From positions 444,217 to 508,216 of the forward strand of contig NZ_HG315691.1 of the NCBI RefSeq assembly GCF_000455345.1: a stretch of DNA of 64,000 nucleotides. Direction: 5' to 3'. The number at the start of each line of letters is the position of its first letter. The first letter of the stretch is position 1. Positions 48,680 through 51,654 of this stretch are shown here, piece after piece. The notes under the pieces were generated by a model. That model saw only the letters and a list, made by a program, of their open reading frames with translations. It did no database searches and was not told where the DNA came from. The DNA is from Halopiger goleimassiliensis (GTDB taxonomy: Archaea; Halobacteriota; Halobacteria; Halobacteriales; Natrialbaceae). The position numbers and the translations under genes are program-made.

Positions 48680-50065
48680 TCAGGGTCGTGGCTCGAAGTA
48701 GCGCCTGAGCTTTGGCCCGAACTCACCACACAGCGCCGTCACCTCGTCGCCGACCAGGACCTCGTAACCGTCCTCGAGGGCCGTCTCGACGTGGGCACCG
48801 AGGCCGACGTCGAAGAGGCGGTCGCTCGCCAGGAAGTCGCGAGCAGTGGTGAACTCACGAGTGCGTTCGGCGATGTACCTGTTCCCCTCGACGAACGGGC
48901 CGTACGCGTCCGGATCGTCGGCGTACGTCTCGTAGAAGCCTTTCGCGTGGCCCTGGACGTGGACCGGCGGGCCGCGGTGACGTTCGACGGCCGGCCGTTC
49001 GGCGACCGCGAGTTCGGCGAAGATCACCGCAGTGTCGTCGGCGAACGTCGTTCCGCGGAAGACGTCGAAACCGCGATCGTCCAGCCCCTGCGTGATTCCC
49101 GAGAGTGACTTGTACAACTGCGGATAGAGCTGATCCTCCACCAGGTCGGGCGCGTCGAACCGGACGGCGACTGGCGTCGTTTTGCGGCGCTCGAGGTGCT
49201 CGCGAAGTTCCGATTCAGAGAGGGGGTTGGGCTCCCGGGGCTCGAAGTACTCGAGGGACGGCTCGTCGAGGAACGCGCGGGCGTAGTGCTGCAGTCGGGC
49301 CACGTTGGCCGCCGAGCAGACGGCCGCGACGTTGCGTTCCGGGTCGGTCGGATCGACGACGACCAGCGGATCGTCGAACGACTGGTCGGCGGGCGCGTGA
49401 TCCTCGGGGTCGAGTTCGACCGGTGGCTGCCACTCCGCCGCGGCCTCGAGCAATGGCAGGAAGCCGCCGTACTCGACGACCAGGAGTTCGGTGAGGTAGC
49501 CGCTGAACCCCCGCGTCTTGAGGTCGCTGCCGTAGACGCCGATCCCCTTCAGAAAGCCCTTCGTGAGCCGCACGTCGGCCGCGAGGTCGTCGTCGAGTCG
49601 CTCCCGCAGGTAGCGGTCGTGAAACGGCGTCCGATCCACCGCCGAACGGATCTCCGTCGCCGAGTCGAGTCGAAAGCAGGGGACGACGTCGACGTCGAAC
49701 CCCTCGCACTCGCCTTTGACGTAGGGGTGTTCGGCGTACTCCTCGTGGCCGTCGGGCAGCGTCTCGTGGCCGACCGCGAGGCCGTACTCCTCGAGCGTCT
49801 CCCGGTCGACGTCGGATGGAAAGCGGACGAAGACGTCGATGTCGCGGTCGCCGCTGATCCACGTCCCGCGGGCGCTCGAGCCGACCAGGGTCGCGTCGGC
49901 CCCGTCACACCGCTCCCGTGCGGCCGTCTCGGCCCGCTCGAGGAGCCGTTCGGCGACGGTGCGGAGCTGCTCGCGTTCCTCCTCGTCAGGGTCGAGTCGG
50001 TCCCTGGCCGCCTCGACGACGGCCGCAACCGCGTCGCGCTCGCTGTCGGCGTCCTCTTCGCTCAT
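48680..50065 (-). CDS. cca: CCA-adding tRNA nucleotidyltransferase
   Basis: A 461-residue class I (archaeal) CCA-adding enzyme, which builds or repairs the 3' CCA of tRNAs. The nucleotidyltransferase motif is GSSARGTWISGDRDIDVF (about 62-79), with the catalytic carboxylates Asp76 and Asp78 followed by DVDVVPCF. KGFLKGIGVYGSDLKTRGFSGYL belongs to the central domain. The tRNA-Asn gene beside it lacks an encoded CCA, so this enzyme is needed to finish it. Confidence 0.94.
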   Translation of the reverse strand: MSEEDADSERDAVAAVVEAARDRLDPDEEEREQLRTVAERLLERAETAARERCDGADATLVGSSARGTWISGDRDIDVFVRFPSDVDRETLEEYGLAVGHETLPDGHEEYAEHPYVKGECEGFDVDVVPCFRLDSATEIRSAVDRTPFHDRYLRERLDDDLAADVRLTKGFLKGIGVYGSDLKTRGFSGYLTELLVVEYGGFLPLLEAAAEWQPPVELDPEDHAPADQSFDDPLVVVDPTDPERNVAAVCSAANVARLQHYARAFLDEPSLEYFEPREPNPLSESELREHLERRKTTPVAVRFDAPDLVEDQLYPQLYKSLSGITQGLDDRGFDVFRGTTFADDTAVIFAELAVAERPAVERHRGPPVHVQGHAKGFYETYADDPDAYGPFVEGNRYIAERTREFTTARDFLASDRLFDVGLGAHVETALEDGYEVLVGDEVTALCGEFGPKLRRYFEPRP

Positions 50066-50159: not shown

Positions 50160-50232
50160 GCCGAAGTAGCTCAGATGGTAGAGCACCTCGCTGTTAACGA
50201 GGTTGTCCCAGGTTCGAGTCCTGGCTTCGGCG
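50160..50232 (+). tRNA. tRNA-Asn (GTT)
   Basis: A complete 73-base tRNA. Acceptor arms GCCGAAG (50160-50166) and CTTCGGC (50225-50231) pair perfectly, with G50232 as discriminator. The D stem is GCTC/GAGC around AGATGGTA, the anticodon stem CCTCG/CGAGG around CTGTTAA with anticodon GTT (50193-50195), and the T stem CCAGG/CCTGG around TTCGAGT. No CCA is encoded and no intron is present. ATCAAATACA (50131-50140) about 20-29 bases upstream is the likely TATA element, and a T-run follows the gene. Confidence 0.97.
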
Positions 50233-50233
50233 T

Positions 50234-50298
50234 GTTTTTGCGGAACCCACATCTCGAGAGGAGCGGTAGCTCCGAGCGAATCCGGGTTCCGCAAACAC
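50234..50298. repeat. Long inverted repeat just after tRNA-Asn
   Basis: TTTGCGGAACCC (50237-50248) and GGGTTCCGCAAA (50284-50295) are perfect 12-base arms; with one mismatch the match extends outward to GTG/CAC. The 35-base interior contains a second hairpin, GGAGC-GGTA-GCTCC (50260-50273). It may terminate the tRNA transcript (it starts with a T-run), act as a small structured RNA, or be the end of an inserted element. Confidence 0.6.
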
Positions 50299-50340
50299 GA
50301 GCCAACAGGACTCGAACACGCCGGTCTTCGTCTCGCACCT

Positions 50341-50361
50341 GTTCGAGTCTTGGCGTCGGCG
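50341..50361. repeat. Partial duplicate of the tRNA-Asn 3' end (att-like)
   Basis: This 21-base segment matches the 3' end of the tRNA (50212-50232) at 19 positions, in the same orientation, 129 bases downstream. An inverted 12-base copy of the T-arm, CAGGACTCGAAC, lies at 50306-50317. Direct repeats of a tRNA 3' end are what integrases of archaeal viruses and plasmids leave behind (attL/attR), so I infer an integration scar. The intervening DNA holds no gene. Confidence 0.55.
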
Positions 50362-50411: not shown

Positions 50412-51350
50412 TTACGCCTGGGCCGCCGTCGACGCGTCGCGGGCCTCGAGCACCTCGCGAACCCACCGTTCGAGGTCCCGCGTCGGTTCGACGCCCAGGT
50501 CCGACCGCATCGAGGCGGGATCGACCGCGAACCGCTCGAGGACCGGCCCCGCGGACGACGGCCGCTCGCGGAGTTCGAGGTCGGGGCTCGAACCGACCAG
50601 GTCGCGACGCGCGGCGGCGATCAGCCCGGCCACCTCGAGGACGCTGTAGCTCTCGCCGCTGCCGAGGACGTAGGTTCGGGCGACGGGGTCGGCCTCGGAG
50701 AGAAGGTCCCCGACGGCGGCGGCCATCGCGTCCGCGACGTCCCGGACGTGGACGAGGTCCCGTTCCTGCGTGCCGGGCCGATGGACCGGTAGCGCCTCGC
50801 CCGCGAGCGCTCGCTCGAGGAAGAAATCGACGACGGAGTCGCCGAGGGTCGTCTCCTCGAGGCTTCCGTAGGGATTCGAGAGGCAGAACGTGACCGACGG
50901 CACGCGGCCGTCGGTGACCGTCCGAACGGCGCGTTCGCCGAGCAGTTTGGTGTGCCCGTATGTCGTCTCCGGGATGCGCTCGCTGTCGGCGGTGAGCGGC
51001 ACCGTCTCGGGACGACCGATCGTCGCGACCGACGAGAGGTGGACCACCGGGACGTCCCGGCGGGCACACGCCCACGCGACGGTCGCCGCGCCGGTTCCGT
51101 TGATCTCGAAGGCGTCGTCGGGGCGCTCCGCGCAGGCGTCCGTCCCGACGAGTCCGGCGGCGTTGACGACGGCGTCGACGTCGGCCACGAACGAACGGAC
51201 GGCCGCCCGGTCCCGGAGGTCGACGGTCGGATACGTCTCGTGGCTCGAGCCAGCCGCGGGAGCGACGTCGTAGCCGCGGTTCCGGAGGACCGACGCGACC
51301 GCGCCGCCGACGTAGCCCGACGCCCCGAGGACACCGACGCGATCACGCAT
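50412..51350 (-). CDS. NAD-dependent epimerase/dehydratase
   Basis: A 312-residue extended short-chain dehydrogenase. NAD(P) is bound by GVLGASGYVGGAV (about 7-19), and the catalytic Tyr and Lys are in TTYGHTKLLGE, with Ser in VVHLSSVATIG. It resembles NAD-dependent nucleotide-sugar epimerases such as those in S-layer glycan or exopolysaccharide synthesis. The gene is divergent from a glycosyltransferase gene, which supports a glycan role. ATG at 51350 gives MRDRVGVLGASG. Confidence 0.85.
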   Translation of the reverse strand: MRDRVGVLGASGYVGGAVASVLRNRGYDVAPAAGSSHETYPTVDLRDRAAVRSFVADVDAVVNAAGLVGTDACAERPDDAFEINGTGAATVAWACARRDVPVVHLSSVATIGRPETVPLTADSERIPETTYGHTKLLGERAVRTVTDGRVPSVTFCLSNPYGSLEETTLGDSVVDFFLERALAGEALPVHRPGTQERDLVHVRDVADAMAAAVGDLLSEADPVARTYVLGSGESYSVLEVAGLIAAARRDLVGSSPDLELRERPSSAGPVLERFAVDPASMRSDLGVEPTRDLERWVREVLEARDASTAAQA

Positions 51351-51654
51351 CGTCCACACCCCTGGTGCGACCGGTCGTCGGCACGGTCGCCCCCTCGAGT
51401 GTCGTCATGGTCGCGCTGACCGGTCGTCCGGGCTTTGTAATTCGAACGCTACAGCCCCGCGGAGGGTATTAGCTCTCCCTACGCCCGCTCTACCGCTCGT
51501 TGGCCGTCTAGCAATCCCACGTTTCCTGCCCGTACTGACGACCCAGCCGTCGTTCGACCTCCGTACGGTTGTCGACTCGAGCGAGCGGCTTCGGGGGTCC
51601 GGCTGTGCGCTCGAATTAACAATGGCCGTGTCCCGTTCAGCTACGGGTATCCAG
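51351..51654. other. Divergent promoter region, epimerase / glycosyltransferase
   Basis: A 304-base gap with no gene. AT-rich words occur near TTTGTAATTCG (51436-51446) and GGTATTAG (51468-51475), consistent with a minus-strand promoter for the epimerase, and AATTAACAAT (51614-51623) at the right end, just upstream of the glycosyltransferase. No inverted repeat stands out. Confidence 0.35.

Follow-up and report, generated by a model that had tools for sequence, protein, structure and literature searches.

The question raised by this locus is why the 3′ end of a tRNA-Asn(GTT) gene of Halopiger goleimassiliensis recurs shortly downstream of that gene, within a stretch of 64,000 nt that was analysed as a whole (the window; contig NZ_HG315691.1, positions 444,217 to 508,216). 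The first-pass annotation had noted a 19/21 copy of the tRNA 3′ end 129 bases further on, with an inverted copy of the T-arm and nested inverted repeats in between, and all of these were recovered: the direct repeat has a start-to-start spacing of 129 nt, which leaves 108 nt between the tRNA-Asn end and its copy, and the arms of a long hairpin (hairpin 1, 85% complementary, with pairs altered on both sides among relatives) lie between the tRNA end and the inverted arm (Table 1). The layout therefore reads tRNA, hairpin 1, inverted T-arm, core hairpin, direct 3′-end copy. With the same 21 nt of tRNA-Asn as a query, the 500 nt that follow each of the other tRNA sequences examined gave 15/21 at best, and the best match upstream of tRNA-Asn itself was 13/21. 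The RNA fold that had been proposed as a check was run, and the region folded much more stably than its dinucleotide-shuffled versions did (z −4.3 and −5.0, 0 of 200 shuffles as good). An Rfam scan of the window matched the tRNA and nothing else.

Table 1. Features of the tRNA-Asn(GTT) locus and its neighbours, in positions of the window
Feature	Position	Strand	Evidence or remark
tRNA-Asn(GTT) gene, target	50160..50232	+	ARAGORN; Rfam RF00005, 72.7 bits
T: tRNA 3′ part, G53 (GTTCGAG...) to end	50212..50232	+	Sequence; homology of copies stops at G53
Hairpin 1	50229..50303	+	Arms 50229-50248 / 50284-50303; inner GGAGC-GGTA-GCTCC hairpin flanked by GA/GA
T′: inverted T-arm copy (CAGGACTCGAAC)	50306..50317	-	12/12 complementary to 50212-50223
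Core between inverted and direct copy	50318..50340	+	Shortened member of class CACGCGAGTCGCA...GACCGTCTCGCAYCTG; alignment and unit listing
Direct copy of tRNA 3′ end, 19/21, read as displaced older 3′ end	50341..50361	+	Repeat comparison; empty/filled sites in relatives
CCA-adding enzyme gene, divergent from the tRNA (context only)	48680..50065	-	Pfam PF09249, PF21133, PF01909
NAD-dependent epimerase/dehydratase gene, downstream neighbour (context only)	50412..51359	-	Pfam PF01370

On balance we think it probable that the locus contains a single copy of a small DNA cassette which targets tRNA T-loops and restores the tRNA, a reading carried by the stop of homology at G53, the cognate copies, the empty and filled sites of relatives, the tandem arrays, the shared core and one PDDEXK_5-bearing cassette. 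The window finding is a decayed, geneless member of a set of palindromic inserts that occur at tRNA T-loops across the order, with a shortened core and two changes in the 21 nt of its copy.

Cognate copies were sought throughout the genome by searching 500 nt on each side of 42 distinct tRNA sequences with the 21 nt from G53 of each (threshold 17/21). A cognate copy was present downstream of 24 of the 42 and upstream of none, and matches at this threshold were obtained for 36 of 1716 non-cognate pairs; the remaining 18 sequences had no downstream copy at 17/21. In the case of tRNA-Asp, the 21/21 match of the census is a second complete tRNA gene, and its partial copy scored 20/21. With a covariance model of 13 tRNA-Asn units (that of the window and those of relatives), 12 sites were detected in the genome at an E-value of up to 1. 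Nine of them begin no more than 3 nt from the end of a same-strand tRNA and a tenth lies 237 nt behind tRNA-Lys(TTT), so that ten different tRNA genes are represented, while the other two (L116 and L124), at which ARAGORN reported no tRNA, correspond to the 3′ end of tRNA-Pro(CGG) and to aspS.

These last two sites were inspected individually. Behind aspS, which encodes aspartate--tRNA(Asn) ligase (C1:2422030-2422147, L218), a like module follows a protein gene and, by eye, holds copies of the gene's own 3′ end that again start at G/TTC. The 3′ end of tRNA-Pro(CGG) (C2:273934-274128, L217) is attR-like, a tyrosine-integrase gene (PF00589, 28.5 bits) ends just upstream of it, and the palindromic unit lies beyond it.

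The anatomy of the units was compared in a set of 113 units with 120 copies, collected by a search that required TTC. Identity of the copies to their own tRNA was 88–100% per position from G53 on, and agreement over the ten positions before G53 was 49, 12, 40, 15, 56, 16, 23, 42, 21 and 15%. In 23 copies from the window's own genome, gathered without the TTC requirement, positions G53 to C56 agreed in 91, 100, 96 and 96% and the preceding positions in 9–57%. A count of tRNA regions with a copy (97 of 178) is no frequency, as the loci were partly chosen for having a copy and TTC was required. The inverted arm pairs best from T54 to about C61 and fades after 9–12 nt. Where the direct copy had changed, the inverted arm sided with the tRNA 19 times and with the copy 4 times, and 6 times it agreed with neither; the pair formed by arm and copy is therefore not kept by compensation. 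Past ~ 12 nt the extended inverted copy was weakly cognate (5.77 vs 5.15 of 11, above control in 62 of 90), and the first flank bases recurred inverted within the unit (8.16 of 11 for the own locus vs 6.94 for other loci, above control in 75 of 97). Cores fell into classes by their ends, for example CACGCGAGTCGCA...GACCGTCTCGCAYCTG, TCAGGGA...GACCGTGG and GTAGA...GCGTGG, and one such class was found at several isoacceptors. Many of their tips are C(GNA)G loops with GA/GA flanks, a structure of high stability in single-stranded DNA. In the consensus of the tRNA-Asn unit, 8 of 32 pairs were altered on both sides.

Comparison with relatives revealed both empty and filled tRNA-Asn sites. Within one genus, G090 had a bare tRNA-Asn (an empty site), whereas in G091 a single insert keeps tRNA end and copy 699 nt apart, and in this insert a PDDEXK_5 gene (PF11645, 102.5 bits; an ORF of 153 aa, the other ORFs across the insert being shorter than 140 aa and known by length alone) is followed by hairpin 1, the inverted arm and the core. 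A third member of this genus, G025, had two inserts, one of the PDDEXK_5 type and a geneless unit nearer the tRNA. Over ~ 520 nt, the flank after the last copy was 94.6% (G025) and 94.0% (G091) identical to the flank after the tRNA in G090, and the same contrast was seen at 82–83% in two other genera (G013/G124, 435/526, and G138/G031, 464/564 aligned columns, gaps included). Because the flank after the copy matches the flank of the empty site, the downstream copy in these relatives is the old 3′ end. Judging from the shared anatomy, the copy in the window would likewise be a displaced 3′ end; the three tRNA-Asn sets, which present 3′-end duplication with empty sites in relatives as tyrosine-integrase elements do, come from genera other than that of the window, which was represented by a single genome.

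Units also occur in tandem. In 20 arrays, the copy nearer the tRNA was the more similar to it in 9, equally similar in 10 and less similar in 1, a polarity that would fit the newest unit lying nearest the tRNA, in a set of related arrays with shared ancestry. In G203, an identical 56-nt block was found behind tRNA-Pro(TGG) and tRNA-Ser(TGA), and outside the T-loop octamers the sequence is in each case the respective tRNA's own.

The taxonomic range was estimated with a T-loop palindrome pattern, GATTYGAAN{20,50}GTTCRAATC, which itself demands GTTCRAATC. It was found in 42 of 43 genomes of the same order and, with 1–2 matches each, in 8 of 203 other genomes of the phylum; the reversed-pattern control matched once each in 2 of 246 genomes, both outside the order. 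The window's own genome gave 12 forward and 13 reverse matches, with 0 for the control. Among 61 distinct pattern sites (50 loci), 51 had a same-strand tRNA less than 700 nt upstream and 48 were copies (at least 17/21) of the end of that tRNA. The 13 misses comprised three sites with 12–16/21 and ten sites without a tRNA, of which two lay outside the order, five read like the tRNA-Ser(CGA) gene itself and three were others. The exact tRNA-Asn copy pattern occurred in six stretches among 84,980 genomes (Natrinema, Haloterrigena, Natronorubrum, Natronolimnohabitans and Natronococcus), each directly behind tRNA-Asn. The tRNA-Asn unit could be aligned from 15 loci in at least 11 genera of the family, these being related genomes whose counts are not independent observations.

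Possible vehicles were sought in plasmids and viral contigs. One 81-nt core gave nothing against plasmids at E 1e-5 (blastn; a weak test, the query being short). Viral contigs held 48 stretches matching the class-I core, none of which had the 5′ core motif within 120 nt upstream with two mismatches allowed. Among the T-loop palindrome matches listed for viral contigs (at least 120 loci), four were flagged by core-like letters and a single one was a clear unit, which follows a complete tRNA-Glu near the end of its stretch (L373) and is read as host DNA beside a provirus; no viral vehicle for the units was found among these matches.

Enzymes that might act on such sites were searched for by profile. 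PDDEXK_5 (PF11645) was present in 85 of 125 genomes of the family, 43 of 99 genomes of the order and 0 of 14 controls. Among the best 30 PDDEXK_5 loci of the order genomes (L330-L359), 28 lie 37–499 nt behind a same-strand tRNA, often tRNA-Asp and otherwise Pro(TGG), Asn, Gly(TCC) or Lys(TTT), against a chance level roughly estimated at ~ 1%. Of 20 hand-picked loci, 19 had a tRNA in the locus and three lay between two tRNA-Asp genes. The window's own genome has such a gene behind tRNA-Asp (C1:1441077-1441463, L216), with a match to PDB 2ost (E 1.1e-5), which we take to be I-Ssp6803I. The PDDEXK_5 gene lies inside the cassette shared by G091 and G025 and is missing from the copy in the window. 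Units were also present in G011 and G017, from which PDDEXK_5 was absent, and this endonuclease is therefore a candidate rather than a proven driver. The integron integrase model TIGR02249 had no match above its cut-off among the 125 family genomes; weaker matches occurred in 89 of the 125 and also in 14 of 14 controls. No integrase gene was recognised within an insert: 108 nt separate tRNA end and copy in the window, and the ORF identified in the 0.7-kb insert of G091 is that of PDDEXK_5.

Several known systems share part of this anatomy. Integron attC sites have an outer stem, an unpaired spacer, an inner stem and a variable tip, and the integron R′ box is G/TTRRRY (GTTRRRY). Units resemble integron cassettes in having a hairpin site of that anatomy, in the end of homology beside G/TT, in forming arrays and, in G091 and G025, in placing a gene and then a palindromic site in one cassette. 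They differ in that no integron integrase scored above cut-off in the 125 genomes, in that the outer box of the unit is the tRNA T-loop G/TTCRAAT rather than GTTRRRY (C56 agreeing in 96% of the 23 own-genome copies), in that the units printed, PDDEXK_5 insert apart, are too short for genes, and in that the receiving site is a tRNA gene. The archetypal I-Ssp6803I gene sits in a tRNA-gene intron. By family match, and by one cassette gene together with the tRNA-adjoining genes, the candidate enzymes resemble the PDDEXK_5 homing endonucleases typified by I-Ssp6803I (PF11645, PDB 2ost), but here the tRNA is left intact and such a gene is missing from most units. Integrative elements at tRNA 3′ ends, as far as the available text of PMC8371274 goes, carry a tyrosine integrase and att sites; a displaced 3′-end copy, a restored tRNA and insertion in the 3′ part of the tRNA are common to them and to the units, whereas the units are 0.1–0.7 kb long, integrase-free, present at more than half of the tRNA sequences and marked by an inverted T-arm and a core that recur. 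For Haloquadratum, the available parts of PMC3119063 give a few cases of partial tRNA duplications and PATE palindromes, ascribed to prophages or related to IS605 transposons; these are likewise haloarchaeal, with partial tRNA copies and palindromic ends, but the inverted T-arm copy is not described in those parts. No description of the module was found in the literature searched, including what was available of PMC3119063, PMC9897764, PMC8371274 and PMC9668308, a weak negative with bioRxiv and most subscription papers outside its scope. In its workings the unit resembles a cassette whose attachment site is palindromic, and it is neither an ordinary integrase element nor a member of the integrons, because two defining features of the latter, IntI and the R′ box, are lacking.

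Under the cassette reading, insertion would take place in the tRNA gene at the T-loop, at or beside G53/T54. The cassette, ordered as tRNA 3′ end, optional cargo, hairpin 1, inverted T-arm and core hairpin, would bring a fresh 3′ end that leaves the tRNA whole, and the original 3′ end would be pushed downstream to become the partial copy. Insertion would be the work of one trans-acting enzyme that recognises T-loop palindromes when the DNA forms a hairpin or cruciform, the candidates being a homing PDDEXK_5 endonuclease and a tyrosine recombinase that treats the sites as integron attC sites are treated. Against this reading, the same core with different cognate flanks would require local re-copying of the T-arm, which plain insertion does not give; the module also stands behind the protein gene aspS; no recombinase was identified, TIGR02249 staying below its cut-off in all 125 genomes; and PDDEXK_5 is missing from two unit-bearing genomes.

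A rival explanation is enzyme-free template switching, in which a double snap-back at a palindrome-bordered tRNA 3′ end would produce a micro tandem inversion duplication with the hairpins as switch points. A double snap-back yields a forward-inverted-forward layout, which is that of the unit; in G124, by eye, the local flank reappears in the hairpin arms, inverted first flank bases are found in the unit at the excess given above, and the inverted copy sides with the tRNA rather than with the direct copy. We nevertheless consider this account rather unlikely: the core is foreign to the locus and common to different tRNAs, homology stops at G53 across many kinds of tRNA, and a gene-bearing insert exists. 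The explanation first offered for the locus, one ordinary integrative element at tRNA-Asn that was later deleted and left attL and attR, keeps its first half, since the copy in relatives is a 3′ end displaced by insertion; this genome also has a tyrosine-integrase gene that stops shortly before the 3′ end of tRNA-Pro(CGG). Of a larger deleted element there was no sign. The arrangement stands behind tRNA-Asn in 15 of 15 aligned loci with no element between, because tRNA end and copy are merely ~ 110–190 nt apart (one of the 15 holding two tandem units); it recurs across the order, a cognate copy lies behind more than half of this genome's tRNA sequences, the inverted T-arm and core recur with it, and the unit of tRNA-Pro(CGG) is placed past the attR-like end. 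A lone att scar is contradicted by this recurrence, the very outcome that the first-pass annotation had named as refuting its reading, and we regard the deleted element as very improbable.

The aside that the inverted repeat may be a structured RNA was also followed up, in the form of a 3′ trailer co-transcribed with the tRNA, for instance in termination or processing, whose inverted T-arm would compete for the T-arm. The strong folds (z about −5), the consensus pairs changed on both sides and an inverted arm that could pair with the T-arm of the tRNA all agree with such a role, and an RNA function on the tRNA strand would predict an excess of G.T over A.C mismatches. A cruder count between inverted arm and direct copy (G.T 66, A.C 41) leans to RNA, its edge positions being perhaps non-homologous. 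The cleaner test was unsupportive: isolated stem mismatches in 97 units, from folds made without G.U pairs and in small numbers, were 16 G.T and 24 A.C (p = 0.27), compared with 13 and 3 in tRNA genes and 20 and 19 in downstream regions without a copy. An ungapped stem scan for wobble was set aside, with too few cases and a tRNA control that failed as well. As the inverted arm follows the tRNA and not its supposed partner, 18 of the 42 tRNA sequences have no copy at the census threshold, and Rfam matches the tRNA alone, a structured RNA seems improbable to us.

A broader form of the cassette reading, which we put forward only tentatively, is an order-wide, integron-like system whose receiving site is the universal (B-box-like) T-loop of tRNA genes, in which geneless palindromic cassettes pile up, cores swap between tRNAs and a PDDEXK_5 endonuclease, itself cargo, would drive insertion; tRNA genes would then be the landing strips of a mobile system. 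They are known landing sites of large elements, and here tiny palindromic inserts occur at more than half of the tRNA sequences and follow one rule, with homology ending at G53, a cognate copy and a shared core. If the cassette reading is true, the units would form a new class of small mobile elements of archaeal DNA, help to explain the variable DNA behind haloarchaeal tRNA genes, give a role to tRNA-linked PDDEXK_5 genes and offer a natural system for T-loop-directed insertion. For annotation, short partial tRNA copies in haloarchaea need not signal a lost prophage.

Some minor observations were made along the way. A GA-rich hairpin motif, GCGAACGNAGTGAGCG, occurred at 28 places in the genome (0 for the reversed control). 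In 20 regions covering 22 of these places a direct copy was found in L253 alone, a tandem repeat of another kind, and the rest were by eye other dispersed intergenic repeats (L240-L259); because its regions are mostly such repeats, the motif alone is not diagnostic of units and was dropped for that purpose. Several PDDEXK_5 genes among the best 30 loci sit between two complete tRNA-Asp copies. Beside the PDDEXK_5 cassette, hairpin 1 has opposite orientations in the sister genomes G025 and G091 (L041 vs L078), by eye as if flipped between its arms. On the side of the CCA-adding enzyme gene, the sequence upstream of tRNA-Asn is, by eye, similar among the relatives printed, and the downstream neighbour is variable. 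Finally, tRNA-Asn carries a canonical 37/38 intron in some relatives and is intron-free in others, among them the window; the tRNA-Asn of L061 and L063 has an intron, and the default tRNA scan reports no tRNA there.
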